Assembly: GCA_946482045.1 (NCBI GenBank)
Contig: CAMLPZ010000046.1
Location: forward strand, 1-18,941
Source of the DNA: an uncultured Asticcacaulis sp.
GTDB lineage: Bacteria; Pseudomonadota; Alphaproteobacteria; Caulobacterales; Caulobacteraceae
Direction: 5' to 3'
Length of the DNA stretch: 18,941 nt
Part shown: piece after piece, positions 2,237 to 17,198 of the stretch
Position numbering within the stretch: the stretch's first letter is position 1
How the letters are laid out: each line of letters starts with the position of its first letter
Translations under genes and position numbers: made by a program
Notes under the pieces: model-generated
Seen by the model: the letters and a program-made list of their open reading frames with translations, nothing else
Told to the model about the DNA's origin: nothing
Databases searched by the model: none

Positions 2237-3664
2237 ATGTCCACAGCAAAGTCTGTGAATACGGGCCTGATCCTCGGATTGGCCGTAGGCGCGTCGCTGG
2301 GCGGTTTGTTGTTCGGTTACGACACGGCCGTTATTTCCGGCGCTGAGCAGTCCATCAAGTACAACTTCGTGCTGCCGCACACCGATTGGTCGGTCGATTA
2401 CCAGAACACGGTGCATGGCTTTGCCGTCGGCATCGCGCTCCTGGGCTGCGTCATCGGTTCGGCGATTGCCGGTCCGCTGGCCACCGCGCTTGGCCGCCGC
2501 GTCGGCATGATCATTGCCGCCGGCCTCTTCTTCTTCTCGTCCCTGTTGTCGGCCTATCCGGAAACCTTCATCGCTCCGGTCGGGCAACTGGGCGTCGAAG
2601 GCATCTGGCCGTTCATGATCTACCGTATGTTCGGTGGCGTCGCCATCGGCATGGCGTCGCTGATTTCGCCGATGTACATTTCGGAAATCTCGCCGGCGAA
2701 GCAGCGTGGCCTGTTCGTTTCGCTCGAACAGATCGCCATCGTGGTCGGTATTACGCTGGTCTACTTCGTCAACATGCAGATCGCCAAGATGGGCTCGCAG
2801 GAATGGATCCATGCGACCGGCTGGCGCTACATGCTGGCTTCGTGCGCGATTCCGGCCGCCATGTTCCTGATCGCGGCCTTCCTGATGCCGGACACACCGC
2901 GCTGGTACATGCTGAAGGGCAAGGAAGACAAGGCGCGGGAAGTGCTGCAAAAGGTTAATGATCCCGCCACGATCGACGCCACCATGGACGAAATCCGCGG
3001 CAGCCTGACCAAGCATTCCGGTAAGTTGTTCTCCTTCGGCGGCGCGGTCCTGCTTGTGGGTATCCTACTGTCGGTCTTCCAGCAGGTCGTCGGCATCAAC
3101 GCCGTCCTCTACTACGCGCCGACCATGTTCGAGAACCTGGGGCTCGGCAAGGACGCGGCCATGATGAACACCGTCATCCTCGGCCTAGACATGGTGCTGT
3201 TCACCTTCGTCGCCCTGTTCACCGTCGACAAGCTAGGCCGCAAGCCGCTGCTGATCTGGGGTGCGGTTATCATGGCGGCCTCGCTGATCTATCTCGGCTT
3301 CCTGTACAACACCCATCAGCAAGGCATCACCTTCCTGATCGCCGCCATCGTCTACATCGCCGGCTTCTCGCTGTCTTGGGGGCCGATCGTGTGGGTCATG
3401 CTGGCGGAAATGTTCCCGAACTCGATCAAGGGCAAGGCCATGTCGGTGGCGGTCGCCGCCCAGTGGATCGCCAACTTCATCGTGTCGCAAACCTTCCCGA
3501 TGATGGACGGCAACCCCCAACTGGTCGCCATGTTCAACCACGGCTTCTCTTTCTATGTCTACGGCGCCTGCGCCATCCTGGCGGCGCTGTTCGTCTGGAA
3601 GTTCGTGCCGGAAACCAAGGGCAAGACGCTGGAAGCCATCGAAGGCCTCTGGAAGAAGTCGTAA
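2237..3664 (+). CDS. xylE: D-xylose:H+ symporter, MFS sugar porter family
   Basis: This 475-residue inner-membrane carrier has the twelve hydrophobic segments of sugar porters. Diagnostic motifs are FGYDTAVISG (residues 26-35), GRR after TM2 (86-88), ISPMYISEISP (143-153), GRKP in the middle loop (334-337) and PETKGKT near the end. The sugar-contact residues known from E. coli XylE all line up: D29 (D27), Q165 (Q168), Q282/Q283 (Q288/Q289), N288 (N294), W386 (W392) and W410 (W416). This makes xylose a better guess than a generic hexose. The ATG at 2237 follows AGGGAG with 6-nt spacing. It is separated from xylD by the ThuA-like gene and probably has its own regulated promoter in 1714-2236. 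A terminator follows at 3691. Glucose uptake as a side activity cannot be excluded. Confidence 0.92.
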   Translation: MSTAKSVNTGLILGLAVGASLGGLLFGYDTAVISGAEQSIKYNFVLPHTDWSVDYQNTVHGFAVGIALLGCVIGSAIAGPLATALGRRVGMIIAAGLFFFSSLLSAYPETFIAPVGQLGVEGIWPFMIYRMFGGVAIGMASLISPMYISEISPAKQRGLFVSLEQIAIVVGITLVYFVNMQIAKMGSQEWIHATGWRYMLASCAIPAAMFLIAAFLMPDTPRWYMLKGKEDKAREVLQKVNDPATIDATMDEIRGSLTKHSGKLFSFGGAVLLVGILLSVFQQVVGINAVLYYAPTMFENLGLGKDAAMMNTVILGLDMVLFTFVALFTVDKLGRKPLLIWGAVIMAASLIYLGFLYNTHQQGITFLIAAIVYIAGFSLSWGPIVWVMLAEMFPNSIKGKAMSVAVAAQWIANFIVSQTFPMMDGNPQLVAMFNHGFSFYVYGACAILAALFVWKFVPETKGKTLEAIEGLWKKS

Positions 3665-3716: not shown

Positions 3717-3756
3717 TTTCGTTTCAACGACAATAAAATGCCATCGGGGAATGACC

Positions 3757-4608
3757 ATGATACGTCTCACGGCGGGAGACACGGTACTCGACATTAATCC
3801 GGCTATTGCCGGGGCGATGTGGCGCCTTACACACAAGGGCAGGGACGCCCTGCGGCCGACGGCGGACGGTACGACCGACGCGTTGATGACGGCCAATTTT
3901 CCGCTTGTGCCCTGGTGCAATCGGCTGCGCGATGGCGCTTTTGTCGCCGAGGGCCGCAAGGTGCAGTTGCCGGCCAATTTTGGCGACAGTCCACATCCCC
4001 TGCATGGCCATGGCTGGCAGACGGCCTGGACGGTCGTGGAGGCCTCTCCGACGCGGGCGGTGCTGTCTTATCGTCATGTGCCTGATGCCTGGCCGTGGGA
4101 TTATGAGGCGACCGTCGTCTATGAACTGAGGCCTGCGGGCGTGCGCTGCTTTGTAACCGTCAAGAACCTGGCGCGCGGGACGATGCCGGCGGGACTGGGC
4201 TTCCACCCCTATTTCAACCGCACGCCGCAGACGCGCCTGAAGGCTGCGGTCGACGGCGTGTGGCTGGTCGATGACCAGACCCTGCCGCGCAACTGGCATG
4301 CCGGCGTGGTCAAGAAGGACTGGACGCACGGCGATGTGGTGACGCACGATATCACCATCGACAACTGCTATACGGGCTTCAAGGGCAAGGCCGAGATTTT
4401 CGAAGGCGAGCGGCTAACGCATACCTTGCGCGCTTCGCCGAACTGCCATTGGCTGCATATCTTCGCGCCGACGCACGATCCTGGGATTTTCTGTGCCGAA
4501 CCGGTCAACCATATGCCCGATCCGTTCAACAAGCCGAACTCGGGCTTGCACTGTCTGAAAAGCGGCCAGACGGACATGGTGTGGATGGACCTGACGCTGC
4601 ATGACTGA
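3757..4608 (+). CDS. Aldose 1-epimerase (sugar mutarotase)
   Basis: This 283-residue protein belongs to the GalM-like aldose 1-epimerase superfamily. It interconverts alpha and beta anomers of aldoses in the cytoplasm; there is no signal peptide. Active-site landmarks are HPLHGHGW (residues 80-87), the general-acid histidine in GLGFHPYF (H150) and the general-base glutamate in CAEPVNHMPDPFN (E248). An in-frame ATG at 3751 exists, but GGGGA at 3746-3750 touches it and is spaced 6 nt from the ATG at 3757, so the second start (MIRLTAGD) is preferred. It lies directly after xylE in the same direction, so a role in supplying the correct xylose anomer to a xylose dehydrogenase is likely, but galactose or another aldose is possible. 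Confidence 0.88.
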   Translation: MIRLTAGDTVLDINPAIAGAMWRLTHKGRDALRPTADGTTDALMTANFPLVPWCNRLRDGAFVAEGRKVQLPANFGDSPHPLHGHGWQTAWTVVEASPTRAVLSYRHVPDAWPWDYEATVVYELRPAGVRCFVTVKNLARGTMPAGLGFHPYFNRTPQTRLKAAVDGVWLVDDQTLPRNWHAGVVKKDWTHGDVVTHDITIDNCYTGFKGKAEIFEGERLTHTLRASPNCHWLHIFAPTHDPGIFCAEPVNHMPDPFNKPNSGLHCLKSGQTDMVWMDLTLHD

Positions 4609-4744: not shown

Positions 4745-5470
4745 TTAGTTTATCCAGCCGCCGTCAATTATGTGCGTCTGGCCCGTCGTAAAGCTCGACT
4801 CGTCCGAGCCGAGGTAAACGGCCAGCGCCGCCAGTTCATCCACCTTGCCGAAGCGGCCCATGGCCTGGCGCGCCGTGAACTCGGCATAGGCCTTGTCGAA
4901 GTCGCCGGTGTCGCGCAGGCGCTGCAACAGCGACGGCGTTTCCACAGTGCCTGGGCAGATGGCGTTACAGCGGATGCCCTGCGTCACGAAGTCGGCGGCC
5001 ACGGCCTTGGTCAGGCCGATCACGGCCGCCTTGGTGGCGCCATAGGCGAAGCGGTTGGGGATGCCTTTGACGGAAGACGCAATCGACGACATGTTGATGA
5101 TCGACCCGCCACCGCGTTCAAGCATGCCCGGCAAGAAGGCGCGCACCATGCGGTACATGGCCGTGACATTCAGATTGAGCGAGAACTGCCAGGCATCCTC
5201 GTCGCATTCCAGGATGTTGCCGGCATGGACCGTACCCGCGCAATTATAGAGCACGTTCACATCCGGGAACCTGGCCGCCAGCGCCTTGACGGCTTCGGCG
5301 TCGGTGATGTCGGCGACATGGCCGATGCCGCCGAAATCCTTCAGCGTCTCGCCATTGATATCGACGGCGATGACCGTGGCGCCTTCCGCCAAGTAGGCGT
5401 CCGCCGTGGCGCGACCGATTCCTTGCCCCGCTGCGGTGATCAGCGCGGTTTTTCCAGCTAGTCTTCCCAT
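4745..5470 (-). CDS. SDR dehydrogenase, probable 2-keto-3-deoxy-L-fuconate dehydrogenase
   Basis: This 241-residue classical short-chain dehydrogenase has the nucleotide-binding motif TAAGQGIG (residues 12-19), D37 at the end of beta-2 favouring NAD+ over NADP+, NCAG (76-79), catalytic S129 in NMSS, and Y143-K147 in YGATK. It ends with the substrate-pocket segment CPGTVETPS and IIDGGW. It closely resembles animal BDH2/DHRS6 and bacterial 2-keto-3-deoxy-L-fuconate dehydrogenases, which are near relatives. In this operon the expected job is oxidation of 2-keto-3-deoxy-L-fuconate to the 2,4-diketo acid. The start at 5470 has AGAGG about 6 nt upstream; a longer in-frame start at 5494 lacks a site. 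It is the last operon gene, set off by a 111-bp spacer, and ends before the bidirectional terminator. Confidence 0.88.
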   Translation of the reverse strand: MGRLAGKTALITAAGQGIGRATADAYLAEGATVIAVDINGETLKDFGGIGHVADITDAEAVKALAARFPDVNVLYNCAGTVHAGNILECDEDAWQFSLNLNVTAMYRMVRAFLPGMLERGGGSIINMSSIASSVKGIPNRFAYGATKAAVIGLTKAVAADFVTQGIRCNAICPGTVETPSLLQRLRDTGDFDKAYAEFTARQAMGRFGKVDELAALAVYLGSDESSFTTGQTHIIDGGWIN

Positions 5471-5581
5471 TTCTAACCTCTGTAGAATTTCCAAAGCTGT
5501 GGCTTTGGCAAGGCCGACCGGCCGCCGCCGCTTGTGCGGCGAGCCTGCGCGGCCTCTGAGCGCATATAAAAAGCGAAGCCG
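5471..5581 (-). other. Spacer with GC-rich hairpin inside the fucose operon
   Basis: This 111-bp gap is the only sizeable one in an otherwise overlapping operon. It contains CGCCGC (5526-5531) and GCGGCG (5536-5541) around a TTGT loop, plus several GGCC-rich repeats. It could be an mRNA-processing or stability element, a weak attenuator, or the site of a secondary promoter for the SDR gene. No coding capacity is seen. Confidence 0.4.
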
Positions 5582-6853
5582 CTATCCCGCTTGTGGTGCG
5601 GTAGCAGGGCGGAGCGGCAGGCAGGCGGGACCCACGGGATCGAACGCCTTGTAGGTGAGAATGAATTCCTGGTGGCCCATGGCTTCCGACTTACTGGGCT
5701 CGCCTGAGGACACACGCAGGATCAGGTCGGTGATCTCGGCGCCGACCTCATCCAACGTCGCGCGGCCTTCCATGATCCGGCCGGCATCGACGTCCATGTC
5801 GCCTTCAAGCCGGCGGTAAGTCTCCGGATTGGCGCAGACCTTGATAACCGGAGAGATGGCGGAACCGACGACACTGCCGCGGCCGGTGGTGAACAGGGTC
5901 AGGTGGCAACCGCAGGCAATCATCTCGACGATCTCGGCATTGTCCGAGATGTTCGGAAAGCCGAAGCGCGGCTCGCCGTCCGGCACGACGTCGAGCAGAT
6001 AAAGCCCGCCGGTCGGCGGCACGTCGCCGGGCTTAAGAATGCCGCAGATCGGCGCCGAGCCCGACTTGGAATAGGCGCCCATGGACTTTTCCTCGAGCGT
6101 CGTCAGGCCGCCATCGGAATTGCCAGGGGCGAACGAGCCGAAGCCCATGATCGAATAGTATGTCTCGGCCTTCTGCACGCAGGCTTCAAGCTCCGCGCCC
6201 AGTTCCGGCGTGATGGCGCGGCTGGCCATGATCTTCTCGCAGCCGATCAGTTCGCCCGTCTCTTCGAAGACGCAGGTAGCGCCGATGGCGCCCAAGGTAT
6301 CGAAGGCGCGGCCGACCGCCGGATTGGCAGTGATGCCCGATGTGCCGTCCGAGCCGCCGCAGATGGTGCCGATGACCAGCTCCGACGTCTTCATCTGGGT
6401 CTTAGGTGCTGCGTCGGCAATGGCGCGGATACGGGATACCGCATCGACGCCTTTTTGAATTGTCGAAGCCGTGCCGCCTTCCTGCTGGATGACGAAGACC
6501 TCGACAGGGCGGCCGGAGGCTTCGATGGCCTTGCGCAGGGCTTCGCGGTTGAAGCTTTCGCAGCCGAGCGACACCAGGACGACCCCGCCGATATTCGGAT
6601 GGGTGCACAGGGCCTGCATCATCGTCAGGGCATACTGGTTGGGATAGCAACCGGGGAAGCCGATCAGATGGACGTCATCGCGTCCAGATTTATCCACGAT
6701 GCGGCGCGCGACGTGGTGCGCGCATTCCACCAGGTAGGCAACGGCGACGATATTGCGGATACCCTTACGTCCGTCGGCGCGCTGCCAGGCGGGGAAGGTA
6801 AAGGTTGTCGGATCGATATGTGCGGGCACCGCAATGGGGCTTAGGCTATCCAT
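5582..6853 (-). CDS. UxaA-family dehydratase, large (catalytic) subunit; predicted L-fuconate dehydratase
   Basis: This 423-residue protein matches the C-terminal catalytic domain of altronate/galactarate dehydratases (UxaA/GarD family), which remove water from C2-C3 of sugar acids using a metal centre. Signatures are WQRADGRKGIRN (residues 23-34), GFPGCYPNQY (65-74), CGGSDGTSGITANPAVG (165-181) and, near the end, LFTTGRGSVVG with ISPVIKVCANPETY. Conserved cysteines (C69, C98, C165) are present. The N-terminal SAF domain found in single-chain UxaA is encoded separately by the gene upstream, with which it overlaps by 8 nt. The ATG at 6853 has GAGG 7 nt upstream; the in-frame start at 6931 would run deep into the SAF gene. 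Operon context predicts L-fuconate as substrate, giving 2-keto-3-deoxy-L-fuconate. D-altronate or another hexonate remains possible. Confidence 0.87.
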   Translation of the reverse strand: MDSLSPIAVPAHIDPTTFTFPAWQRADGRKGIRNIVAVAYLVECAHHVARRIVDKSGRDDVHLIGFPGCYPNQYALTMMQALCTHPNIGGVVLVSLGCESFNREALRKAIEASGRPVEVFVIQQEGGTASTIQKGVDAVSRIRAIADAAPKTQMKTSELVIGTICGGSDGTSGITANPAVGRAFDTLGAIGATCVFEETGELIGCEKIMASRAITPELGAELEACVQKAETYYSIMGFGSFAPGNSDGGLTTLEEKSMGAYSKSGSAPICGILKPGDVPPTGGLYLLDVVPDGEPRFGFPNISDNAEIVEMIACGCHLTLFTTGRGSVVGSAISPVIKVCANPETYRRLEGDMDVDAGRIMEGRATLDEVGAEITDLILRVSSGEPSKSEAMGHQEFILTYKAFDPVGPACLPLRPATAPQAG

Positions 6854-7145
6854 GGGTTGCCTCACGGGTATGGGTCTTGATGTAATCGCTTTGCATGTTG
6901 TGCATATGGACATGGTCGCCGGCTTTTGCATCGGTCGTCATCGAACCGATCGGAGCGCCATACTTATAGATCTTGTCCCCGATCTTCAGGTCGCGGCGCG
7001 CGATCTTGTGGCCAACCTCGACCGGAGACGTCAATGTCAGGATCTGATCGTCCACCGCGACCGTCTCGCCGGTCTCGGCGCGGGCGCGGCAGACGAGGAC
7101 ATTGTCGTCTCCGTGCAAAAGGATGAAGGACGCGTGCGTACTCAT
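6846..7145 (-). CDS. UxaA-family dehydratase, small subunit (SAF domain)
   Basis: This 99-residue protein equals the N-terminal SAF domain of altronate dehydratases. Recognisable parts are FILLHGDDNVLV (residues 7-18), VEVGHKIARRDLKIGDKIYK (42-61), KYGAPIG (61-67) and the histidine-rich end GDHVHMHNMQSDY (76-88). In the two-gene members of the family such small proteins pair with the large subunit to form the active enzyme. Its ATG overlaps the aldo/keto reductase stop as ATGA, and its own last 8 bases overlap the large-subunit gene, so the three are probably translationally coupled. It has no catalytic cysteines and is not expected to work alone. Confidence 0.87.
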   Translation of the reverse strand: MSTHASFILLHGDDNVLVCRARAETGETVAVDDQILTLTSPVEVGHKIARRDLKIGDKIYKYGAPIGSMTTDAKAGDHVHMHNMQSDYIKTHTREATHG

Positions 7146-8173
7146 GTGTGAACTTTCTCCGGCGCCGGTGTCGGCGCGTCATCGGGCAGCAGGTTTTCGG
7201 CCTTGAGATCGCTCCAAAGGCCAGCGGGGATGGACCGGTCAAACCAGTCGATATTTTGCGTCACCTCGGTCGGGCTGGCCATACCGACGACTGCACCGGC
7301 AATAGCCGGGTGCGCGAGTGGAAATTGCAGGGCGACCGCAGACAGCGGGACGTCATGGCTGTCACATACGGCTTTCAGAGCCTGAACGCGTGACCGGACG
7401 GCTTCTGGTGCGGGCGCGTAATTGTAGGCCGTTCCGCCACTGAGGATTCCGGAATTGAAGACCCCGGCGGCCAGCACACTCACTTCGCGGCGTTCGCATA
7501 AGGGCAGGAAGCTCGATAGCGCGGTCTGTTCCAGCAGGGTGTAGCGTCCGGCCAGCAGAACGACATCGATGTCGGCGTGGCTGAGGATCTCTTCGCAGAT
7601 CTGCCATTCATTGACACCCAGTCCGATCGCCTGGACCTGGCCGGAGTCCTTCAGTTCAGACATGGCGCGGTAGCCGCCGTCGAGGAAGGCCTTCAGATGA
7701 TGGGCGTGGGCGTCTCCATGCGTCACCACGCCCAGGTCGTGGGCCAGAAGGATACCTATGGGCGCGCCGCCCAGCCGCTGGCGGCTGTCGTCGAAAGATC
7801 GCATGACGCCGTCATAGGAGTAGTCGAACACCGGTTCATACGGGTCACCATCAATAAAGCCGTGGCGTTCGGTCCCTGGGACGTACGGTCCGGCAGGTTT
7901 CAGGACACGGCCGACCTTGGTCGACAGGATGACATCGTGGCCGGAAACCGCAGCGCCGACACGGCGTTCGCTTAAGCCCTGGCCGTAATGCGGCGCGGTG
8001 TCAAATAGGGCGATGCCGTTATCCAGCGCGCATTGCAGGGTCGCCCGGGCGGCCTCATCGCTCATGGCGCGGTAGAGGTTGCCGACCGACGCCGCGCCAA
8101 ACCCGAGCGCGGGAACGGTAAGATCTGTGCGGCCTATCGATGTTCTGTGAAGGCGGTTCACGGGTGGATACAT
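7142..8173 (-). CDS. Aldo/keto reductase, probable L-fucose 1-dehydrogenase (D-threo-aldose 1-dehydrogenase type)
   Basis: This 343-residue TIM-barrel NAD(P)-dependent oxidoreductase has the aldo/keto-reductase tetrad D58, Y63, K86 and H145, in FDTAPHYG, STKVGRV and LLAHDLG. It resembles the D-threo-aldose 1-dehydrogenase / pyridoxal 4-dehydrogenase branch, whose members oxidise L-fucose at C1 to the lactone. Being directly beside a lactonase and a FucP-type permease supports L-fucose to L-fuconolactone as the reaction. The ATG at 8173 is 3 nt after the IclR stop; its likely ribosome site GGGAG lies in the last codons of that gene, 8 nt upstream. The end overlaps the next gene by 4 nt. Cofactor preference (NAD or NADP) cannot be read with confidence. 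Confidence 0.85.
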   Translation of the reverse strand: MYPPVNRLHRTSIGRTDLTVPALGFGAASVGNLYRAMSDEAARATLQCALDNGIALFDTAPHYGQGLSERRVGAAVSGHDVILSTKVGRVLKPAGPYVPGTERHGFIDGDPYEPVFDYSYDGVMRSFDDSRQRLGGAPIGILLAHDLGVVTHGDAHAHHLKAFLDGGYRAMSELKDSGQVQAIGLGVNEWQICEEILSHADIDVVLLAGRYTLLEQTALSSFLPLCERREVSVLAAGVFNSGILSGGTAYNYAPAPEAVRSRVQALKAVCDSHDVPLSAVALQFPLAHPAIAGAVVGMASPTEVTQNIDWFDRSIPAGLWSDLKAENLLPDDAPTPAPEKVHT

Positions 8174-8176
8174 CTC

Positions 8177-8941
8177 CTAGGCTCCCATGCTGCGGCTGAG
8201 CGCGGCGGCGGTGGCGCGGAGGTGGGCGGTCGTCTCTTCTATGCCTGCGCTTTCCGTTGAGCGGATGAACGGCATGGTCAGGGCGGCGATAACTGAAACG
8301 TCGTTATGGATCGGGCAGGAGATATCGACGATTCCTTCGGCGTAGCCGCTCTTGACGGCAATAAATCCTTGCGCGATGGCACGGTCAGCCTGGGCGTCGA
8401 ATTCCTGCCATTCCTCGGGTGTCAGGATCGGATGCATCTGGTTGCGCCAGCTTTCGCGGACCTTCGGCTTCTGGAAGGCGTAGAGGATGATGCCCGAGGT
8501 CGACTTGCACAGCGGGCGCTGATAGCCGACACGCACTGAAAAACCGATGTCGCCGGGGGCTTCGACGCGGGCGATGACCACGATGCGGTCGTCGGAGGCA
8601 ATGACGAGATGACAGGCCTGGCGTGTCTGCTCGCTCAGTTCCTGCATCATAGGCAGGGCGCTCAGCAAGAGGTTCTGGTTCGGGCCGCGTGAAATGCCGA
8701 GCGAGAACAGTTTGTTGGTCAGTTCAAAGCCGTCGCCGCGCGCTGAAGGCCCGACGTAACCGCGCGCCTCCAGCACCTGAACCATGCGGAACAGTTCGCT
8801 GACCGAGCGATCGAGCCGCGTGGAAATCTGCGACAGGGTCAACGGCGCCTTGGCGGAAGCCAGCAGTTCCAGGACGTCGAGCCCTTTCTCCAGAGCGGGC
8901 GCGCGGTATTTGGCGGTCTTGTCGGATTCGGAATCGAGCAT
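8177..8941 (-). CDS. IclR-family transcriptional regulator, probable L-fucose operon regulator
   Basis: This 254-residue protein has an N-terminal winged helix-turn-helix (about residues 15-75, with LTLSQISTRLDRSVSELFRMVQ at 35-56 split across the two helices) and a C-terminal IclR effector domain (about 90-250) containing VRVGYQRPLCKSTSGIILYAF-like and GFIAVKSGYAEGIVDISCPI-like segments. IclR proteins usually bind a small metabolite and act on their own operon. Embedding between the lactonase and the dehydrogenase suggests autoregulation in response to fucose or a pathway acid. The chosen ATG at 8941 starts 8 nt after the lactonase stop; its ribosome site is weak (AAGA), so coupling to the upstream gene is likely. 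A longer start at 9097 would overlap the lactonase widely and lacks family similarity. Confidence 0.87.
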   Translation of the reverse strand: MLDSESDKTAKYRAPALEKGLDVLELLASAKAPLTLSQISTRLDRSVSELFRMVQVLEARGYVGPSARGDGFELTNKLFSLGISRGPNQNLLLSALPMMQELSEQTRQACHLVIASDDRIVVIARVEAPGDIGFSVRVGYQRPLCKSTSGIILYAFQKPKVRESWRNQMHPILTPEEWQEFDAQADRAIAQGFIAVKSGYAEGIVDISCPIHNDVSVIAALTMPFIRSTESAGIEETTAHLRATAAALSRSMGA

Positions 8942-8949
8942 GTTGGGTC

Positions 8950-9771
8950 TTAAGTCAGTTGATAAAAGCTGCGGGCGGTACCGCCGAAAACAGCGGCGCG
9001 GACAGCTTCGGATTGCGGCGCCAGCCACGCCGATGTCCAGTCCTGCCATGTGTCGTAGGTCGTGCGCAAGTTCACGACTGGCCAGTCTGAGCCCCACATG
9101 AGGCGATCGGGGCCAAAACAGGCCAGAATATGATCGGCATAAGGTTTGGCGGCGTCAAGCGACAGGCTGCCCGCCATTTCGGTCGCCAGGCCTGACAGTT
9201 TGCAGAAAACGTTGGAATTCTCCGCCACCCGCGCCATGCCATCGCGCCACTGGCCGTCATTGCCGCTGCCGATTTGAGGCTTGGCGCAGTGGTCGATGAC
9301 GATGGGCAGGGTCGGGTAAGCGCGCGCCAGCCGGTCAATGATTGGCAGGTGGCGCGGAAAGATCAGGGCGTCGAAACGCAAACCAAGGTCAGTAATCGCG
9401 CTGAGCGCGGGACGCACCGTCCCACGCAAGATCCACGCGTCGTCGGCAAGGCCCTGTAACATCGGACGTATGCCCTTCACCTTGGGGCTGCGAGACAGTT
9501 TCGCCAGCCGGGCAGGCGCTGACGGCGCCTCCAGATCCGCCCAGGCGACGATGCCCTTTATGAACGGGGTGCGCTCCGCGACCTCACACATCCAGTCGGT
9601 GTCGAGATCGCTGGGCTGCGATTGCACCAGCACGCTTGCGTCCACACCCATGGCTTCGGCCCGGAAGTCTTCCGGGCCGAAATCGCGATGAATGGCAGTA
9701 AGATCGGGTGTCGGCCATTCATGGCCGTTGCGCCCGATCTGCCAAAGATGCTGGTGCGAATCGACGATCAT
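8950..9771 (-). CDS. Amidohydrolase-family lactonase, probable L-fuconolactonase
   Basis: This 273-residue enzyme is a COG3618-type metal-dependent hydrolase with a TIM-barrel amidohydrolase fold. Visible motifs are DSHQHLW (residues 4-10, metal/active-site histidines H6 and H8), LVQSQPS (48-54), IDHCAKP (159-165) and the catalytic aspartate in WGSDWPV (D229). Characterised members include L-fuconolactonase, L-rhamnonolactonase and 4-sulfomuconolactonase. Here it should open L-fuconolactone to L-fuconate after the aldo/keto reductase step. Its ATG overlaps the permease stop by one base (TGATG), a strong sign of coupled translation; a TTG one codon earlier is an alternative. There is no signal peptide, so it acts in the cytoplasm. 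L-galactono- or L-arabinonolactone are plausible extra substrates. Confidence 0.87.
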   Translation of the reverse strand: MIVDSHQHLWQIGRNGHEWPTPDLTAIHRDFGPEDFRAEAMGVDASVLVQSQPSDLDTDWMCEVAERTPFIKGIVAWADLEAPSAPARLAKLSRSPKVKGIRPMLQGLADDAWILRGTVRPALSAITDLGLRFDALIFPRHLPIIDRLARAYPTLPIVIDHCAKPQIGSGNDGQWRDGMARVAENSNVFCKLSGLATEMAGSLSLDAAKPYADHILACFGPDRLMWGSDWPVVNLRTTYDTWQDWTSAWLAPQSEAVRAAVFGGTARSFYQLT

Positions 9772-11069
9772 CAATGCCCCGTCATGGCGACAGGCGTCAC
9801 CGTCTTGGGCGAGCGGAAGGCGTAAAATGCGATAACCGCGAAGCAGACGACCGTAACGACAAAGGCTGTCCGAATGTGGCTGGCGTCCGAAATCAGGCCC
9901 ATCACCATGGTCAGGGCGCCGCCGCCAATGATGCTCATCACCAATAGCGAAGAGCCGGTCTTCGTGAGATTGCCCAGCCCCTGCACCGAGGTGGCGAAGA
10001 TGGTCGGGAACATGATGGACATGAAGAAGGAGGACGCGACAAGGGCGTACAGGCCGTTTTGCCCGCCGGCGACAACAGCATAAAGGGTCAGGCCGATGTT
10101 GATGACGGCAAAAACGCCGAGGATCAGAGAAGCACTGACACGGCTCATCAGCGCGGTGCCGAAGAACCGGCCGATGGCAAAGGCGATAAGGGCGAAATAG
10201 AGGTAGTTGGCGGCTTCCTTTTCCCCGAGGCCGATCTCAGCCTGGGCGTAACGGATGGTGAAGCTCCAGATACCGACCTGGGCGCCGACGTAAAAGAACT
10301 GCGCCACGACGCCGAAAAGGAAGTGCGGTTTGCTGAACAGCCGGGTAATCGATGTGAAGAAGCCAATGTCCTCACCCGTGTCCTCGTGCGAGTTCTGCGT
10401 CGCCGCGGCGGGGAATTTCGACAACAGAACCAGCGCTGCCCAGGCCAGGACGACGCAGCCAATGACCAGGTAAGGGCCCTGAACGGCCTTGACTTCGGAG
10501 ACGTAGAAGGCCTGGCGCGCGGCCTCGCTCATGGCCGCCAGGGCCTGCTCATCGTGCTCGATGCCGGACAGGATAAAGTGCTGGCCGATGAAGATGCCCG
10601 AAAGGGCGCCAAGCGGGTTGAAACTTTGGGCGAGATTGAGCCGGAAGGCGGCTTTTTCCGGAGAACCCAGGACGGTGATTAGGGGGTTCGCCGAAGTTTC
10701 CAGGAAAGCCAGCCCCGAAGCGATGACGAACAGGCCGCCGAGGAACCAGCTATATTGATGATTGTCGGCCGCCGGATAGAAGAGGAAGGCGCCGGCCGCG
10801 TAGAGCAGGAGGCCGATGACCACCGAGAACTTGTAACCCAAGGTGCGCATGACAAAGGCGGCGGGCAGGGCCAGCAGGAAATAGCCGAGATAAAAGGCCC
10901 ATTGGACCAGTCCCGTCTGAAGGTCGGTCAGGATGAAGGCCTTCTTGAATTGCGGGATCAGAATGTCGTTGAGGTTGTTGGCCACGCCCCAGAAAAAGAA
11001 CAGGCTGGTAATTAATATAATGGGCCAAAGGCCTGTTGACGCTTTTGCGTCCGTCTTCGCTTCCGACAT
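9771..11069 (-). CDS. fucP: L-fucose:H+ symporter, FucP type (FHS family of MFS)
   Basis: This 432-residue inner-membrane carrier has twelve hydrophobic segments. Motifs are FFFWGVANNLNDILIPQFKK (about residues 24-43), GYFLLALPA (62-70) and AFLETSANP (121-129). The two acidic residues essential in E. coli FucP, D46 and E135, correspond to D35 and E124 with the same 11-residue offset. This points to L-fucose rather than the glucose/galactose branch, which has Q at the second site. The ATG at 11069 follows AGGAGGG with 9-nt spacing. A longer in-frame start at 11132 has no ribosome site and adds a charged, non-conserved tail. It is the first gene of the seven-gene minus-strand operon, so the operon promoter should lie between 11070 and 11229. 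Confidence 0.92.
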   Translation of the reverse strand: MSEAKTDAKASTGLWPIILITSLFFFWGVANNLNDILIPQFKKAFILTDLQTGLVQWAFYLGYFLLALPAAFVMRTLGYKFSVVIGLLLYAAGAFLFYPAADNHQYSWFLGGLFVIASGLAFLETSANPLITVLGSPEKAAFRLNLAQSFNPLGALSGIFIGQHFILSGIEHDEQALAAMSEAARQAFYVSEVKAVQGPYLVIGCVVLAWAALVLLSKFPAAATQNSHEDTGEDIGFFTSITRLFSKPHFLFGVVAQFFYVGAQVGIWSFTIRYAQAEIGLGEKEAANYLYFALIAFAIGRFFGTALMSRVSASLILGVFAVINIGLTLYAVVAGGQNGLYALVASSFFMSIMFPTIFATSVQGLGNLTKTGSSLLVMSIIGGGALTMVMGLISDASHIRTAFVVTVVCFAVIAFYAFRSPKTVTPVAMTGH

Positions 11070-11229: not shown

Positions 11230-11580
11230 ATGAACAAGCTCTATTTTTGCCTCGATCTCAAGGACGACGCCGCTGCTATCGAGCGCTACAAGCAGTGGCA
11301 TGCGCCGGGTCAAGTGCCGGCGCCTATCAACGCCTCGATTCGCGATGCCGGTATCGAAGCCCTGGAAATCTTCCTCGCCGGTAATCGGATGGTCATGGTC
11401 CTGACGCCAGGGGCAGGCTTCGATCCCGCGGCAAAGGCGGCGGCCGACGCCGCCAGTCCCGACGTCCAGGCGTGGGAGAAGCTTATGTGGGACTTCCAGC
11501 AGCCCCTGCCCTTTGCCGCACCGGGCGAAAAATGGGTACCTATGACGCGAATATACGCACTGTCTGAGCAACCGCTATAA
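11230..11580 (+). CDS. L-rhamnose/L-fucose mutarotase (RhaM family)
   Basis: This 116-residue cytoplasmic protein is of the RhaM (YiiL) family, which speeds alpha/beta anomer exchange of 6-deoxy sugars and is unrelated in fold to the epimerase at 3757. Family features are the short ferredoxin-like alpha/beta layout, Y20 and H24 in ERYKQWHAPGQV (matching Y18 and H22 of E. coli RhaM), EALEIFLAGNRMVMVL (43-58), and the tryptophan-rich AWEKLMWDFQQPLP (about 80-93). It begins at an ATG with a good GGAGG ribosome site. Divergence from the fucP operon and lack of any rhamnose gene nearby favour L-fucose as substrate, as in the Xanthomonas-type fucose cluster. It would supply the anomer used by the aldo/keto reductase. 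Confidence 0.88.
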   Translation: MNKLYFCLDLKDDAAAIERYKQWHAPGQVPAPINASIRDAGIEALEIFLAGNRMVMVLTPGAGFDPAAKAAADAASPDVQAWEKLMWDFQQPLPFAAPGEKWVPMTRIYALSEQPL

Positions 11581-11696
11581 TATGATAATTGCCAAGCTGG
11601 CACGTCGTGCTATGAGGACAAAAACTCTGACAAATGCAGGCACAGCGATACTCCGAAAAGTGTGCAGCGGTTTTCGGCTAAAATATCGCGAATAAC

Positions 11697-11711
11697 AGGC
11701 AAGCGCTTACA
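11697..11711. promoter_or_regulatory. Possible LacI/GalR-family operator before the galactose dehydrogenase gene
   Basis: The 8-bp palindrome AAGCGCTT at 11701-11708 is followed by ACA, so the right half GCGCTTACA fits the common LacI/GalR-type operator form TGTAAGCGCTTACA, while the left half (AGGC) does not. It lies just upstream of the ribosome site AAGGGA (11713-11718), a typical place for repression. Supported only by pattern. Confidence 0.35.
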
Positions 11712-11727
11712 CAAGGGACTTTTGGTA

Positions 11728-12666
11728 ATGTTCGGCAGTAAACCCCTCAAAATCGGTTTGATCGGCCTCGGCAAGATTGCGGTGGATCAGCATATCCCCT
11801 CGATCAACGCCAACAGGAAGCTGACCCTGGTCGCCGGTTGTTCGCCCAGCTCGCGCCCTGACGGCGTCAAGGCCTACAACACCTATGAGGAAATGGTCGC
11901 GGCTCATCCTGATATCGAGGCCGTCGCCATCTGCACCCCGCCGCAGGTCCGTCACGTCATCGCCCAGCAGGTGATCAATGACGGCCGTCATGTGTTCCTG
12001 GAAAAGCCGCCCGCGGCGACGCTCGGCGAGGCCATGGCGATCAAGGCCCTCGCCGCCCAAAAAGGCGTCAGCCTGCTGGCCAGCTGGCACTCGCGCTTCG
12101 CCCCGGCGGTCGAGCGTACGCGCCAGTGGATCGCGTCGCGTAAGCTGAAGTCGGTGGTCGTCCACTGGAAGGAAAACGTCCGCCAGTGGCACCCAGGCCA
12201 GAAGTGGATTTTCGAAGCCGGTGGCATGGGGGTCTTTGATCCAGGCATTAATTCACTGTCGATCGTAACCCGCATCCTGCCGGGCGCCGTTATGGTCAAG
12301 AAGGCCGACCTGCACATTCCGGGCAATTGCGAAGCCCCGATCCAGGTCGAGATGGACATGCTGACGACCAACGGCGTGCCGGTGCGTGCCGAGTACGACT
12401 TCCTGCAGACCGGCATCCAGACCTGGAGCATCTTCGTCGAGTCCGAAGCCGGGGAAAAGCTGACCCTGTCGATGGGCGGCGCCGAGCTGGAAATCGACGG
12501 CCAGGTGATGACCAAGGAAAAGGAGGCCGAATATCCGGGCCTCTATGCGCACTTCCACGACCTGATCAAGTCGAAGTCGTCGGATGCGGATTTTGAGCCG
12601 CTGCGTATCGTGGCGGATGCCATGTTGCTCGGCAAAAGGATTACTGCCCCCGACTACATCGAATAG
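11728..12666 (+). CDS. Gfo/Idh/MocA oxidoreductase, probable D-galactose 1-dehydrogenase
   Basis: This 312-residue protein starts with a Rossmann fold (KIGLIGLGKIAVDQHIP, residues 8-24), then ICTPPQ (68-73), the family EKP motif in FLEKPPAATLG (90-100), and SWHSRFAP (119-126). The stretch WKENVRQWHPGQKW (147-160) followed by EAGGMGVFDPGIN (163-175) closely matches the Pseudomonas galactose dehydrogenase sequence as I recall it. That enzyme oxidises D-galactose with NAD(P)+ to the galactonolactone, the first step of the oxidative (DeLey-Doudoroff) route. The ATG at 11728 follows AAGGGA with 9-nt spacing; the longer frame from 11662 has no ribosome site. D-fucose or L-arabinose may also be substrates, since this enzyme type is known to be relaxed. 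Later galactonate genes are not in the window. Confidence 0.85.
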   Translation: MFGSKPLKIGLIGLGKIAVDQHIPSINANRKLTLVAGCSPSSRPDGVKAYNTYEEMVAAHPDIEAVAICTPPQVRHVIAQQVINDGRHVFLEKPPAATLGEAMAIKALAAQKGVSLLASWHSRFAPAVERTRQWIASRKLKSVVVHWKENVRQWHPGQKWIFEAGGMGVFDPGINSLSIVTRILPGAVMVKKADLHIPGNCEAPIQVEMDMLTTNGVPVRAEYDFLQTGIQTWSIFVESEAGEKLTLSMGGAELEIDGQVMTKEKEAEYPGLYAHFHDLIKSKSSDADFEPLRIVADAMLLGKRITAPDYIE

Positions 12667-14800: not shown

Positions 14801-16147
14801 ATGTCCTCATCCTCAGAAACGGCTAAACCCGGCGGCCTTGCGCTTGCCGTGGTATACGTTACGTGTCTCTTCTTCATATGGGCGCTGGTGACCAACCTGC
14901 TTGACCCACTGCTGAAGACCATGAAGACCGTCTTCACCCTGACGCCCGTCCAGGCCAACCTGACCGGCTTCGCCTTCTTCATCGCCTATGGCGTGATGTC
15001 GCTGCCGTCGGCGGCTTTCCTGTCGAAGTTCGGTTACGCCAACTCCGTCATGGTCGGCCTTGGCGCCATTGTAACCGGCTGCTTCATGGCCATCGCCGCG
15101 GCGAACGTCCACATCTACACCATCTTCCTGGTCGCCCTGTTCGTCATGGCCTCGGGCGTCACCCTGCTGCAGGTCGCGGCTAACCCGCTGATCGCCTCCA
15201 TGGGCAAGCCTGAGGATTCGGCCTTCCGTCTGAACCTGTCGCAGTCGTTCAACAGCCTGGGCGCTGCCTGCGGCCTTTTCTTCGGCGCCAAGTTCCTGCT
15301 GAACGGCGAGATTTTTGAAAAGGACGTGGTCATCACCGACGTCATGCGCGAAGAAGCCCTTGGCTTCGTCTCGAACGTCTACCTCGCTATCGGCGTTGCC
15401 CTGGCCCTGTTCATCTTCGCCATCTTCCTGGTCCGCAAGAAAATCACCGCCGCCGCCCCCAAGACCGGCAAGCTGGTTTCTCCGTTCAGCGCGCTGAAGT
15501 CCAAATGGGCCAACCTTGGCTCGATCGGCATCTTCCTCTATGTCGGCGCTGAAGTGGCTATCTCGCTCAACCTGCTGCTGTTCCTTGAGCAGAAAAACAT
15601 CCTGAACATCGAAGCCCAGTCGGCCGGTCAGCTGACCACCTTCTACATGCTGTTCGCCATGATTGGCCGCTTTGCCGGTTCGGCCCTGCTGAAGGTCGTT
15701 CGCGACTACGTCATGCTGACTATGGTGGCCCTGGGCGCCATCGCCCTGTCGCTGGTTGTTATCTTCACCAAGGACCTGGTCCCGACTGAACCGACCGGCA
15801 TGATCAATGTCATCCTGACCTCGGTCCCGGAAACCTCGGGCCTGATCCCGGCTTTCGCGGCCCTGCTGATCGGCCTGTTCAACTCCATCATGTTCCCGAC
15901 CATCTTCACCCTGACCCTGCAGCGTTCGACCGCGCCGACCTCGGCGACTTCGGGTCTGCTCTGCATGGCCATCGTCGGCGGTGCCTTCCTGCCGCTGGCC
16001 TTCGCCAAGATCCAGGAACTGACCGGTTCGATGTCGCTCGGCTTCATCGCCCCGCTGCTCTGCTACGTCTATGTGCTGTGGTTCTCGTTCGCCTGCCGCA
16101 AGGCGCCGACCCACGCCATCGAAGAAGGCGTCACCGGCGGCCACTAA
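14801..16147 (+). CDS. Sugar:H+ symporter, glucose/galactose-type FHS family (MFS)
   Basis: This 448-residue carrier has twelve hydrophobic segments and belongs to the same FHS family as the FucP protein at 9771. Shared landmarks are FFIWALVTNLLDPLL (residues 24-38), AYGVMSLPSA (62-71), LLQVAANPL (122-130) and FNSIMFPTIFTLTLQ. The conserved aspartate is D35, but the position of FucP's essential E135 is Q124. Glutamine here is typical of the glucose/galactose (GluP-like) branch, so a hexose rather than L-fucose is expected. The following Mak-type kinase gene, 124 bp downstream and in the same direction, suggests fructose, mannose or glucose. The palindrome at 14499 suggests repression by a LacI-family protein. 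A terminator hairpin follows directly. Confidence 0.88.
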   Translation: MSSSSETAKPGGLALAVVYVTCLFFIWALVTNLLDPLLKTMKTVFTLTPVQANLTGFAFFIAYGVMSLPSAAFLSKFGYANSVMVGLGAIVTGCFMAIAAANVHIYTIFLVALFVMASGVTLLQVAANPLIASMGKPEDSAFRLNLSQSFNSLGAACGLFFGAKFLLNGEIFEKDVVITDVMREEALGFVSNVYLAIGVALALFIFAIFLVRKKITAAAPKTGKLVSPFSALKSKWANLGSIGIFLYVGAEVAISLNLLLFLEQKNILNIEAQSAGQLTTFYMLFAMIGRFAGSALLKVVRDYVMLTMVALGAIALSLVVIFTKDLVPTEPTGMINVILTSVPETSGLIPAFAALLIGLFNSIMFPTIFTLTLQRSTAPTSATSGLLCMAIVGGAFLPLAFAKIQELTGSMSLGFIAPLLCYVYVLWFSFACRKAPTHAIEEGVTGGH

Positions 16148-16271: not shown

Positions 16272-17198
16272 ATGTTATATGTCGGTGTTGATTTTGGCGG
16301 CACGAAGATCGAAGCCGCCGCCCTGTCGCAGGACGGTGACTTCCTGTCGCGGCAAAGGGAGCCCAATCCCGGCAACTACCACGATGCCATCCGCACGGTG
16401 TGCGAACTGATCAATCGTGTCGAAACCGAAGCCCGCCAGAAAGACCCCAGTCTCGCCCATCGTATCGGCACCATCGGCGTCGGCGCTCCCGGTTCAGTGA
16501 GTCCGCGCACCGGCGTGATGCGCAATGCCAATTCGACATGGCTGAACGGCAAGACCTTCCGCGAGGATCTCGAGGCCGCGCTCCAGCGCCCGGTCCGTCT
16601 GGCCAACGACGCCAACTGCCTGGCCCTGTCCGAAGCCATCGATGGCGCGGGCAAGGGGCTGAAATCCGTTTTCGCCATCATCATCGGCACTGGGTGCGGT
16701 GGCGGCCTGGTCGTTGATGGCCGTCTGGTCGAAGGCGCCAACGGGGTCACCGGAGAATGGGGCCATATGCCACTGCCATGGCCGCGACCTGAAGAATTCC
16801 CCGGGCCGACCTGCTGGTGCGGTCAAAAGAGTTGCCTTGAAACCTGGGTGTCCGGTTCCGGCTTTGCCCGCGACTTCCACCATGTGACTGGCCGCGCGAT
16901 GAAGGGCGAACAGATTATCGAAGCCATGCGCGCCGGCGATCCGGATGCGGATGCAGCTTTTGACCGTCTGGTCGATCGCCTGGGCCGCGCCCTGGCCGTC
17001 GCCGTCAACATGATCGATCCCGACGCCTTCGTCTTCGGCGGCGGCCTGTCGAACGTGCAGGAACTGTATGACCGCCTGCCGGGCAAGATCCGCCCCTATG
17101 TGTTCAGTGACGCGTGGGCGGCAACCCTGGCGCCGGCGAAGTGGGGCGACAGTTCCGGCGTGCGCGGGGCCGCTCAGCTCTGGCAGCAGGGCCGTTAA
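16272..17198 (+). CDS. mak: ROK-family fructokinase/mannokinase (Mak type)
   Basis: This 308-residue cytoplasmic sugar kinase uses ATP to make fructose 6-phosphate or mannose 6-phosphate. ROK landmarks are the phosphate loop DFGGTK (residues 7-12), GAPGSVSP (71-78), ANSTWLNG (86-93), the catalytic aspartate in LANDANCLALSEA (D113), IIGTGCGGG (137-145), GEWGHMPLPW (161-170) and the zinc site formed by H165 with C181, C183 and C188. It matches E. coli Mak (302 residues) almost throughout, including the end motif KWGDSSGVRGAA, so fructose/mannose is preferred over glucose or N-acetylglucosamine. The ATG at 16272 has AGGA 9 nt upstream. Downstream of the FHS transporter, it probably phosphorylates the imported hexose. 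Confidence 0.9.
   Translation: MLYVGVDFGGTKIEAAALSQDGDFLSRQREPNPGNYHDAIRTVCELINRVETEARQKDPSLAHRIGTIGVGAPGSVSPRTGVMRNANSTWLNGKTFREDLEAALQRPVRLANDANCLALSEAIDGAGKGLKSVFAIIIGTGCGGGLVVDGRLVEGANGVTGEWGHMPLPWPRPEEFPGPTCWCGQKSCLETWVSGSGFARDFHHVTGRAMKGEQIIEAMRAGDPDADAAFDRLVDRLGRALAVAVNMIDPDAFVFGGGLSNVQELYDRLPGKIRPYVFSDAWAATLAPAKWGDSSGVRGAAQLWQQGR

Follow-up and report, generated by a model that had tools for sequence, protein, structure and literature searches.

The stretch of DNA analysed here, hereafter the window, comprises 18,941 nucleotides of contig CAMLPZ010000046.1 (assembly GCA_946482045.1) from an uncultured Asticcacaulis sp., and carries at positions 4745 to 11069 an operon whose genes resemble those for the oxidation of L-fucose. 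Two of these genes encode the small (SAF-type) and large (UxaA/GarD-type) subunits of a dehydratase, a pair that, judging from sequence comparison, most likely dehydrates L-fuconate, a reading in which we place good confidence. The same reaction is proposed for the enolase-superfamily L-fuconate dehydratase FucD of X. campestris, a protein of a different family. The operon and the adjoining mutarotase gene are made up as follows.

4745..5494, minus strand: short-chain dehydrogenase/reductase (SDR; PF13561/PF00106), most likely an L-2-keto-3-deoxyfuconate (KDF) 4-dehydrogenase (FucF role)
5582..6853, minus strand: UxaA/GarD-type large subunit (PF20629, 272.7 bits; PF04295, 100.3 bits), proposed catalytic subunit of an L-fuconate dehydratase
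6846..7145, minus strand: SAF-type small subunit, 99 aa (PF08666, 17.1 bits, under the cut-off of 21; TIGR03248, 25.6 bits)
7142..8173, minus strand: aldo/keto reductase (AKR; PF00248), probable L-fucose 1-dehydrogenase
8177..~8941, minus strand: IclR-family regulator (PF09339 and PF01614), start counted by hand
8950..9774, minus strand: COG3618-type amidohydrolase (PF04909), probable L-fuconolactonase
9771..11069, minus strand: L-fucose:H+ symporter FucP (TIGR00885, 435.6 bits against a cut-off of 280.4)
11230..11580, plus strand: RhaM-family mutarotase (PF05336, 75.2 bits), probable L-fucose mutarotase

An earlier note on this DNA had described the seven genes within 4745-11069 as lying on one strand with overlapping ends. 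All seven correspond to minus-strand open reading frames at the places and in the families it gave, as established from the list of reading frames and profile searches, and the operon is real and coherent. Overlapping ends were found at three of the six junctions only; two others have gaps of 3 and ~8 bases, and at the sixth the SDR begins 87-111 bases past the end of the large subunit, its real start probably lying near 5470. The mutarotase gene is divergent from the operon and sits just beyond it. As the note had stated for the operon, no enolase-type FucD is present among the annotated genes of the window, and profile searches detected no enolase-type domain in the SAF/UxaA pair.

The large subunit carries the second and C-terminal GD_AH domains (PF04295 and PF20629), both well over their cut-offs, and the weak TIGR03248 match of the small subunit falls on the model of the GarD N-terminus. 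The pair has its superfamily and the conserved cysteines in common with the D-altronate dehydratase UxaA and the galactarate dehydratase GarD, but whereas UxaA is a single chain in a hexuronate context, the window enzyme is encoded by two genes in a fucose context. For comparison we used the best 80 of 557 confirmed genome loci with relatives of the large subunit, a choice because of which the sample leans towards close relatives, and added four plasmid loci. In a midpoint-rooted FastTree tree of 103 large-subunit match segments, 18 of them non-clade, the window and these 84 loci form one clade of 85 tips (support 0.879, branch length 0.94). The clade is set apart from all 18 outgroup sequences, and from UxaA/GarD, by an insertion of 11 residues near 291-302 and by a C-terminal end of a different kind; as the C-terminal gaps of the outgroup arose partly from local matches, this comparison was redone on full frames (18 outgroup rows, six clade rows and the window). 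Non-clade UxaA-family genes, used below as controls, are 32-36% identical to the large subunit of the window. Cys44, 69, 98 and 165 occur in 85/85 clade rows (1.00) and in 0.89-0.94 of the 18 outgroup rows. Four conserved cysteines of the superfamily have been proposed as iron ligands, numbered Cys134/173/208/276 in PMC6336799, and we equated ours with these by order and last spacing only. The substrate, the iron and the association of the two subunits are what we infer from these comparisons.

The remaining enzymes fit the same route. By family and best relative, the genes for the mutarotase, sugar dehydrogenase, lactonase and KDF 4-dehydrogenase of the non-phosphorylating L-fucose pathway (Route III) are all present. 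The best Protein Data Bank (PDB) matches of the AKR are the L-galactose dehydrogenases 8scc, 9w6y and 7smi (92-100 bits), and that of the amidohydrolase is the 4dlf group (114 bits). The earlier note had seen FucP acidic residues in the permease; on the 3o7q alignment D46, E135 and N162, important residues of FucP, are identical in the window protein (positions counted by hand). A search of 15 genomes gave GH29 in 13 and no member of the L-fucose isomerase family (0/15). The SDR is closest to the KDF 4-dehydrogenases 8y11, 8xwk and 8y4j (316-317 bits); the substrate ligands Arg148, Arg192 and Arg214 given for this enzyme in PMC11199699 map to R144, R188 and R210 of the 8xwk chain by a uniform shift of four positions that we counted by eye, and the window SDR has arginine at each of the three places.

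KDF dehydrogenase itself is described as a stereoselective L-KDF/D-KDP dehydrogenase (PMC6336799), in keeping with the role proposed for the SDR but also with a second substrate, D-2-keto-3-deoxypentonate (D-KDP). The operon might instead serve mainly D-arabinose, or both sugars, with the pair acting as a D-arabinonate dehydratase whose product, D-KDP, is also oxidised by the SDR. The same paper reports a bacterial AKR-family dehydrogenase that uses D-arabinose and L-fucose with similar efficiency, and a member of the dehydratase family, C785_RS13685, that acts on D-arabinonate. We nevertheless regard this as unlikely, given that FucP, GH29 homologues in 23/80 loci and the occurrence of FucD among similar genes indicate L-fucose, and that the L-fucose and D-arabinose clusters of Paraburkholderia mimosarum are each induced by their own sugar only (PMC6336799). 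The heteromeric dehydratase of that species, discussed below, would lie in its fucose cluster.

Returning to L-fuconate as the favoured substrate, we compared the neighbourhoods of close homologues, as the earlier note had suggested, at identity thresholds of our own choosing. The nearest relative is in Asticcacaulis solisilvae (locus L001), where the large subunit is 96% identical. Within the 80 genome loci the large subunit is usually accompanied by a common kit of genes: small subunit (76), AKR (72), IclR regulator (69), KDF-dehydrogenase-type SDR (68), lactonase (54), FucP (54), fumarylacetoacetate-hydrolase-family (FAH) hydrolase (33) and alpha-L-fucosidase (GH29, 23), with a mutarotase relative of at least 40% identity in 39/80. 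The counts for the 62 loci longer than 19.9 kb were 58 for the AKR, 54 for the SDR, 46 each for the lactonase and FucP, 25 for FAH and 18 for GH29. None of the SDR, AKR, lactonase, FucP or GH29 genes was found in 12 control regions of ~20 kb around non-clade UxaA-family genes from ten of the same genomes; FAH was present in one of these and a weak tagaturonate-reductase-like match (28-31%) in seven. The clade thus usually lies among fucose genes, and the control regions lack the kit. In the plasmid collection, nine records had relatives at 60-80% identity and 308 below 60%, the best listed of the latter at 39%.

Some relatives are labelled (2R)-sulfolactate sulfo-lyase subunit in the source database, and the pair occurs in other contexts (L071 and L082), as would be expected if it acted on another sugar acid or a compound of the sulfolactate type and lay in the operon only incidentally. 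This is highly improbable, since the kit recurs in loci labelled Caulobacter, Sphingomonas, Nitrospirillum, Cellvibrio and Paraburkholderia and the clade keeps the four cysteines, whose counterparts sulfolactate sulfo-lyase lacks according to PMC6336799; SuyAB is set apart here by that description and not by a SuyB sequence.

A zinc-dependent alcohol dehydrogenase (Zn-ADH; L012 6870-7874, best PDB match RspB) accompanies the pair in 10/80 UxaA-type loci, mostly of Caulobacter, and the same type also stands in three FucD-type clusters (L175, L177 and L179). These ten loci can be read together with the Sphingomonas parapaucimobilis locus L083, where the pair adjoins tagaturonate-reductase-like and Zn-ADH genes, with the mixed lgoD, uxaA and uxaB loci described for Halomonas in PMC5507952 and with the lack of any other UxaA-family gene in A. 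solisilvae. On such grounds the pair could dehydrate D-altronate or L-galactonate as part of an L-galactonate branch placed on a fucose operon, as in the Halomonas loci. We consider this very unlikely: the annotated operon genes of the window include neither a tagaturonate-reductase-like nor a Zn-ADH gene, the operon would be left with no L-fuconate dehydratase, and further UxaA-family genes are present in 10/15 genomes (12 additional copies, of which 11 have frames of at least 509 aa).

Where enolase-type FucD does occur bears directly on the assignment of L-fuconate to the pair. The reference was a FucD (L121:612-1907; 562 bits to 2hxt) taken from the genome that holds the Paraburkholderia humisilvae locus, and the search covered relatives of the window's organism, namely 78 genomes of the 80 loci (L048 and L055 were dropped as the same assemblies as L046 and L037), some of which are metagenome bins and may be incomplete. 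With a threshold of 65% identity, 10/78 genomes have FucD, namely nine Burkholderiaceae and Sphingobium lactosutens; 68/78 gave no FucD match, the remaining matches being partial and at most 41% identical, and none came from the 21 genomes that carry the label Asticcacaulis, Caulobacter or Brevundimonas. Of 199 genomes in the family to which Sphingobium scionense belongs, nine contain FucD, seven the pair and one both. These numbers fit independence and do not support a statistical exclusion between FucD and the pair. Related genomes mostly have FucD in a setting of similar genes: of the nine FucD regions of the Sphingobium family, seven contain a KDF-dehydrogenase-type SDR with 55-60% identity to that of the window, an eighth combines FucD with mutarotase, AKR, IclR, FucP and lactonase but lacks the SDR, and the ninth has GH29 and IclR only. 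The UxaA pair is in none of these nine 20-kb regions. In S. lactosutens the FucD cluster (mutarotase, lactonase, FucP, SDR and GH29) is separate from the UxaA-type locus L057, and in genome G176 the pair lies ~25 kb from FucD. In A. solisilvae (L117) a gene of the enolase family adjoins an FAH gene; we considered it as a FucD and rejected this, its best PDB match being 2oz3, which carries only the name mandelate racemase/muconate lactonizing enzyme, and the next ones L-rhamnonate dehydratases.

The conserved context of the pair, the lack of a FucD match in the genomes nearest to it and the presence of FucD among similar genes elsewhere all support dehydration of L-fuconate by the pair. In the proposed pathway, FucP would import L-fucose by proton symport and the mutarotase (11230-11580) would interconvert its anomers, the AKR would oxidise L-fucose to L-fuconolactone and the amidohydrolase would open the lactone to L-fuconate. 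The two-subunit, probably iron-dependent UxaA/GarD dehydratase (6846-7145 and 5582-6853) would then convert L-fuconate to KDF, which the SDR would oxidise at C4 to L-2,4-diketo-3-deoxyfuconate, and an FAH-family enzyme, probably encoded with L-rhamnose genes elsewhere, would cleave this diketo intermediate to pyruvate and L-lactate. The pair is probably a non-homologous substitute for enolase-type FucD, as the earlier note had proposed, although the coexistence of the two in some genomes means that it is not a replacement everywhere. Going further, we lean slightly towards regarding the clade as a dedicated L-fuconate subfamily of UxaA/GarD marked by its own insertion, and FucD and the pair as modules that can stand in for each other and have been swapped repeatedly within an L-fucose gene set that several proteobacterial families otherwise share, some genomes (such as S. 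lactosutens) holding both clusters. Should the assignment be confirmed, the name L-fuconate dehydratase could take the place of 'UxaA family hydrolase', 'altronate hydrolase' and '(2R)-sulfolactate sulfo-lyase subunit', under which the clade now appears in databases, and Asticcacaulis and Caulobacter genomes in which no FucD was found would have a complete oxidative fucose pathway.

Several observations weigh against this interpretation. D-arabinonate and L-galactonate stereochemically resemble L-fuconate. The amidohydrolase scores 175.8 bits against the L-fucono-1,5-lactonase model NF052480, under its cut-off of 400, and the annotation of the window shows no FAH-family hydrolase, in the operon or beside it. 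Some clade members, for instance L034, L058 and L071, have no SDR, lactonase or AKR match, and the pair of Rhizobium L082 is also outside the kit. FucD and the pair coexist in all nine sampled Burkholderiaceae, in S. lactosutens and in G176, and four Burkholderiaceae FucD regions examined lack the kit. In A. solisilvae the operon copy is the only UxaA-family gene, no second one having been found. Lastly, according to PMC9100392, a knockout of cj0483, the Campylobacter jejuni gene considered below, indicated that it is not essential for L-fucose metabolism.

Individual loci also depart from the common arrangement. At the Devosia locus (L071) a Zn-ADH and an SDR gene lie near the pair, as do genes that on inspection by eye look TRAP-transporter-like and RraA-like; this context and that of Rhizobium L082 perhaps reflect the import of a sugar acid, and the substrate there might be a different one. 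The Asticcacaulis tiandongensis locus (L010) gave matches to the pair, AKR, FucP and IclR, with no lactonase or SDR match at the locus. On a plasmid of Rhodobacteraceae bacterium SC52 (L170 3586-13487) a single-chain altronate dehydratase stands among AKR, amidohydrolase, SDR and FAH genes, neighbours that suggest the single-chain branch may serve such pathways too.

The earlier note had held out the possibility that the replacement and the substrate assignment were new, a suggestion that prior proposals do not bear out. A heteromeric L-fuconate dehydratase of the same superfamily, A19U_RS0100650/A19U_RS0100655 of P. mimosarum, was assigned from gene context in 2019 (PMC6336799). Like the window pair, it is a two-gene UxaA/GarD-superfamily dehydratase tied to a non-phosphorylating L-fucose route, a likeness that rests on gene context, with no P. 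mimosarum among the 120 protein matches listed. In four Paraburkholderia loci of our sample (L074, L076, L079 and L080) the pair is accompanied by AKR, lactonase, SDR and FAH genes; their large subunits are 70-72% identical to that of the window and belong to the clade. The window operon differs from this type in having FucP and an internal IclR gene and in lacking FAH. An article of 2024 by Watanabe, entitled 'Characterization of a novel L-fuconate dehydratase ...', is cited for P. mimosarum and grouped there with enolase-type enzymes. PMC12263773 and PMC13313319 do no more than cite it, and we infer that it concerns the heteromeric enzyme.

In C. jejuni, cj0482-cj0483 have been proposed for L-fuconate dehydration (PMC12566272, PMC9100392), and Cj0483 is entered as the dehydratase of the fucose locus in PMC6946681. 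As in the window, small and large altronate-dehydratase-type proteins are there combined with FucP, an amidohydrolase and a mutarotase, but the locus differs in having FucX, to which the name short chain dehydrogenase is given, and a protein of the DapA type; the two loci are likened here by gene content and not by sequence. A fucose locus without FucD was remarked upon in PMC5507952. Our literature search, with subscription journals mostly outside its coverage, found no title on this dehydratase in Asticcacaulis. The idea of a UxaA-type L-fuconate dehydratase is thus already in print and the window pair adds a member to it; what the present analysis adds is the comparison of FucD-type with UxaA-type gene sets, together with the Caulobacter-Asticcacaulis members.

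A candidate for the last step, that of a 2,4-diketo-3-deoxyfuconate hydrolase (FucG), is found in the rhamnonate-dehydratase region of A. solisilvae, which encodes a 2,4-didehydro-3-deoxy-L-rhamnonate hydrolase (544.8 bits against the NCBIfam cut-off of 500; best PDB match 8gsr) accompanied by an L-rhamnonate-dehydratase-like gene, an SDR and an amidohydrolase. The protein is 57-59% identical to two hydrolases from fucose clusters. The rhamnose and fucose routes yield the same diketo intermediate (PMC11199699), and one hydrolase may be shared between them.

Further genes of note lie on both sides of the operon, on the plus strand. On one side, another group of sugar genes includes a sugar-acid dehydratase from a different family; it consists of the C-terminal part of an IlvD/Edd-family dehydratase (10-684; NF009560, 334 bits, under the cut-off), a XylE-like permease (2237-3664) and an aldose 1-epimerase (3751-4608). 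On the other side, a Gfo/Idh/MocA oxidoreductase (11662-12666) adjoins the mutarotase and has relatives of at least 60% identity in 8/80 loci, all labelled Asticcacaulis. Further along lie a second permease of the FucP/GluP family (14801-16147), under the FucP cut-off, and adjoining it a ROK kinase (16272-17198) that is closest to a fructokinase model, likewise under its cut-off.

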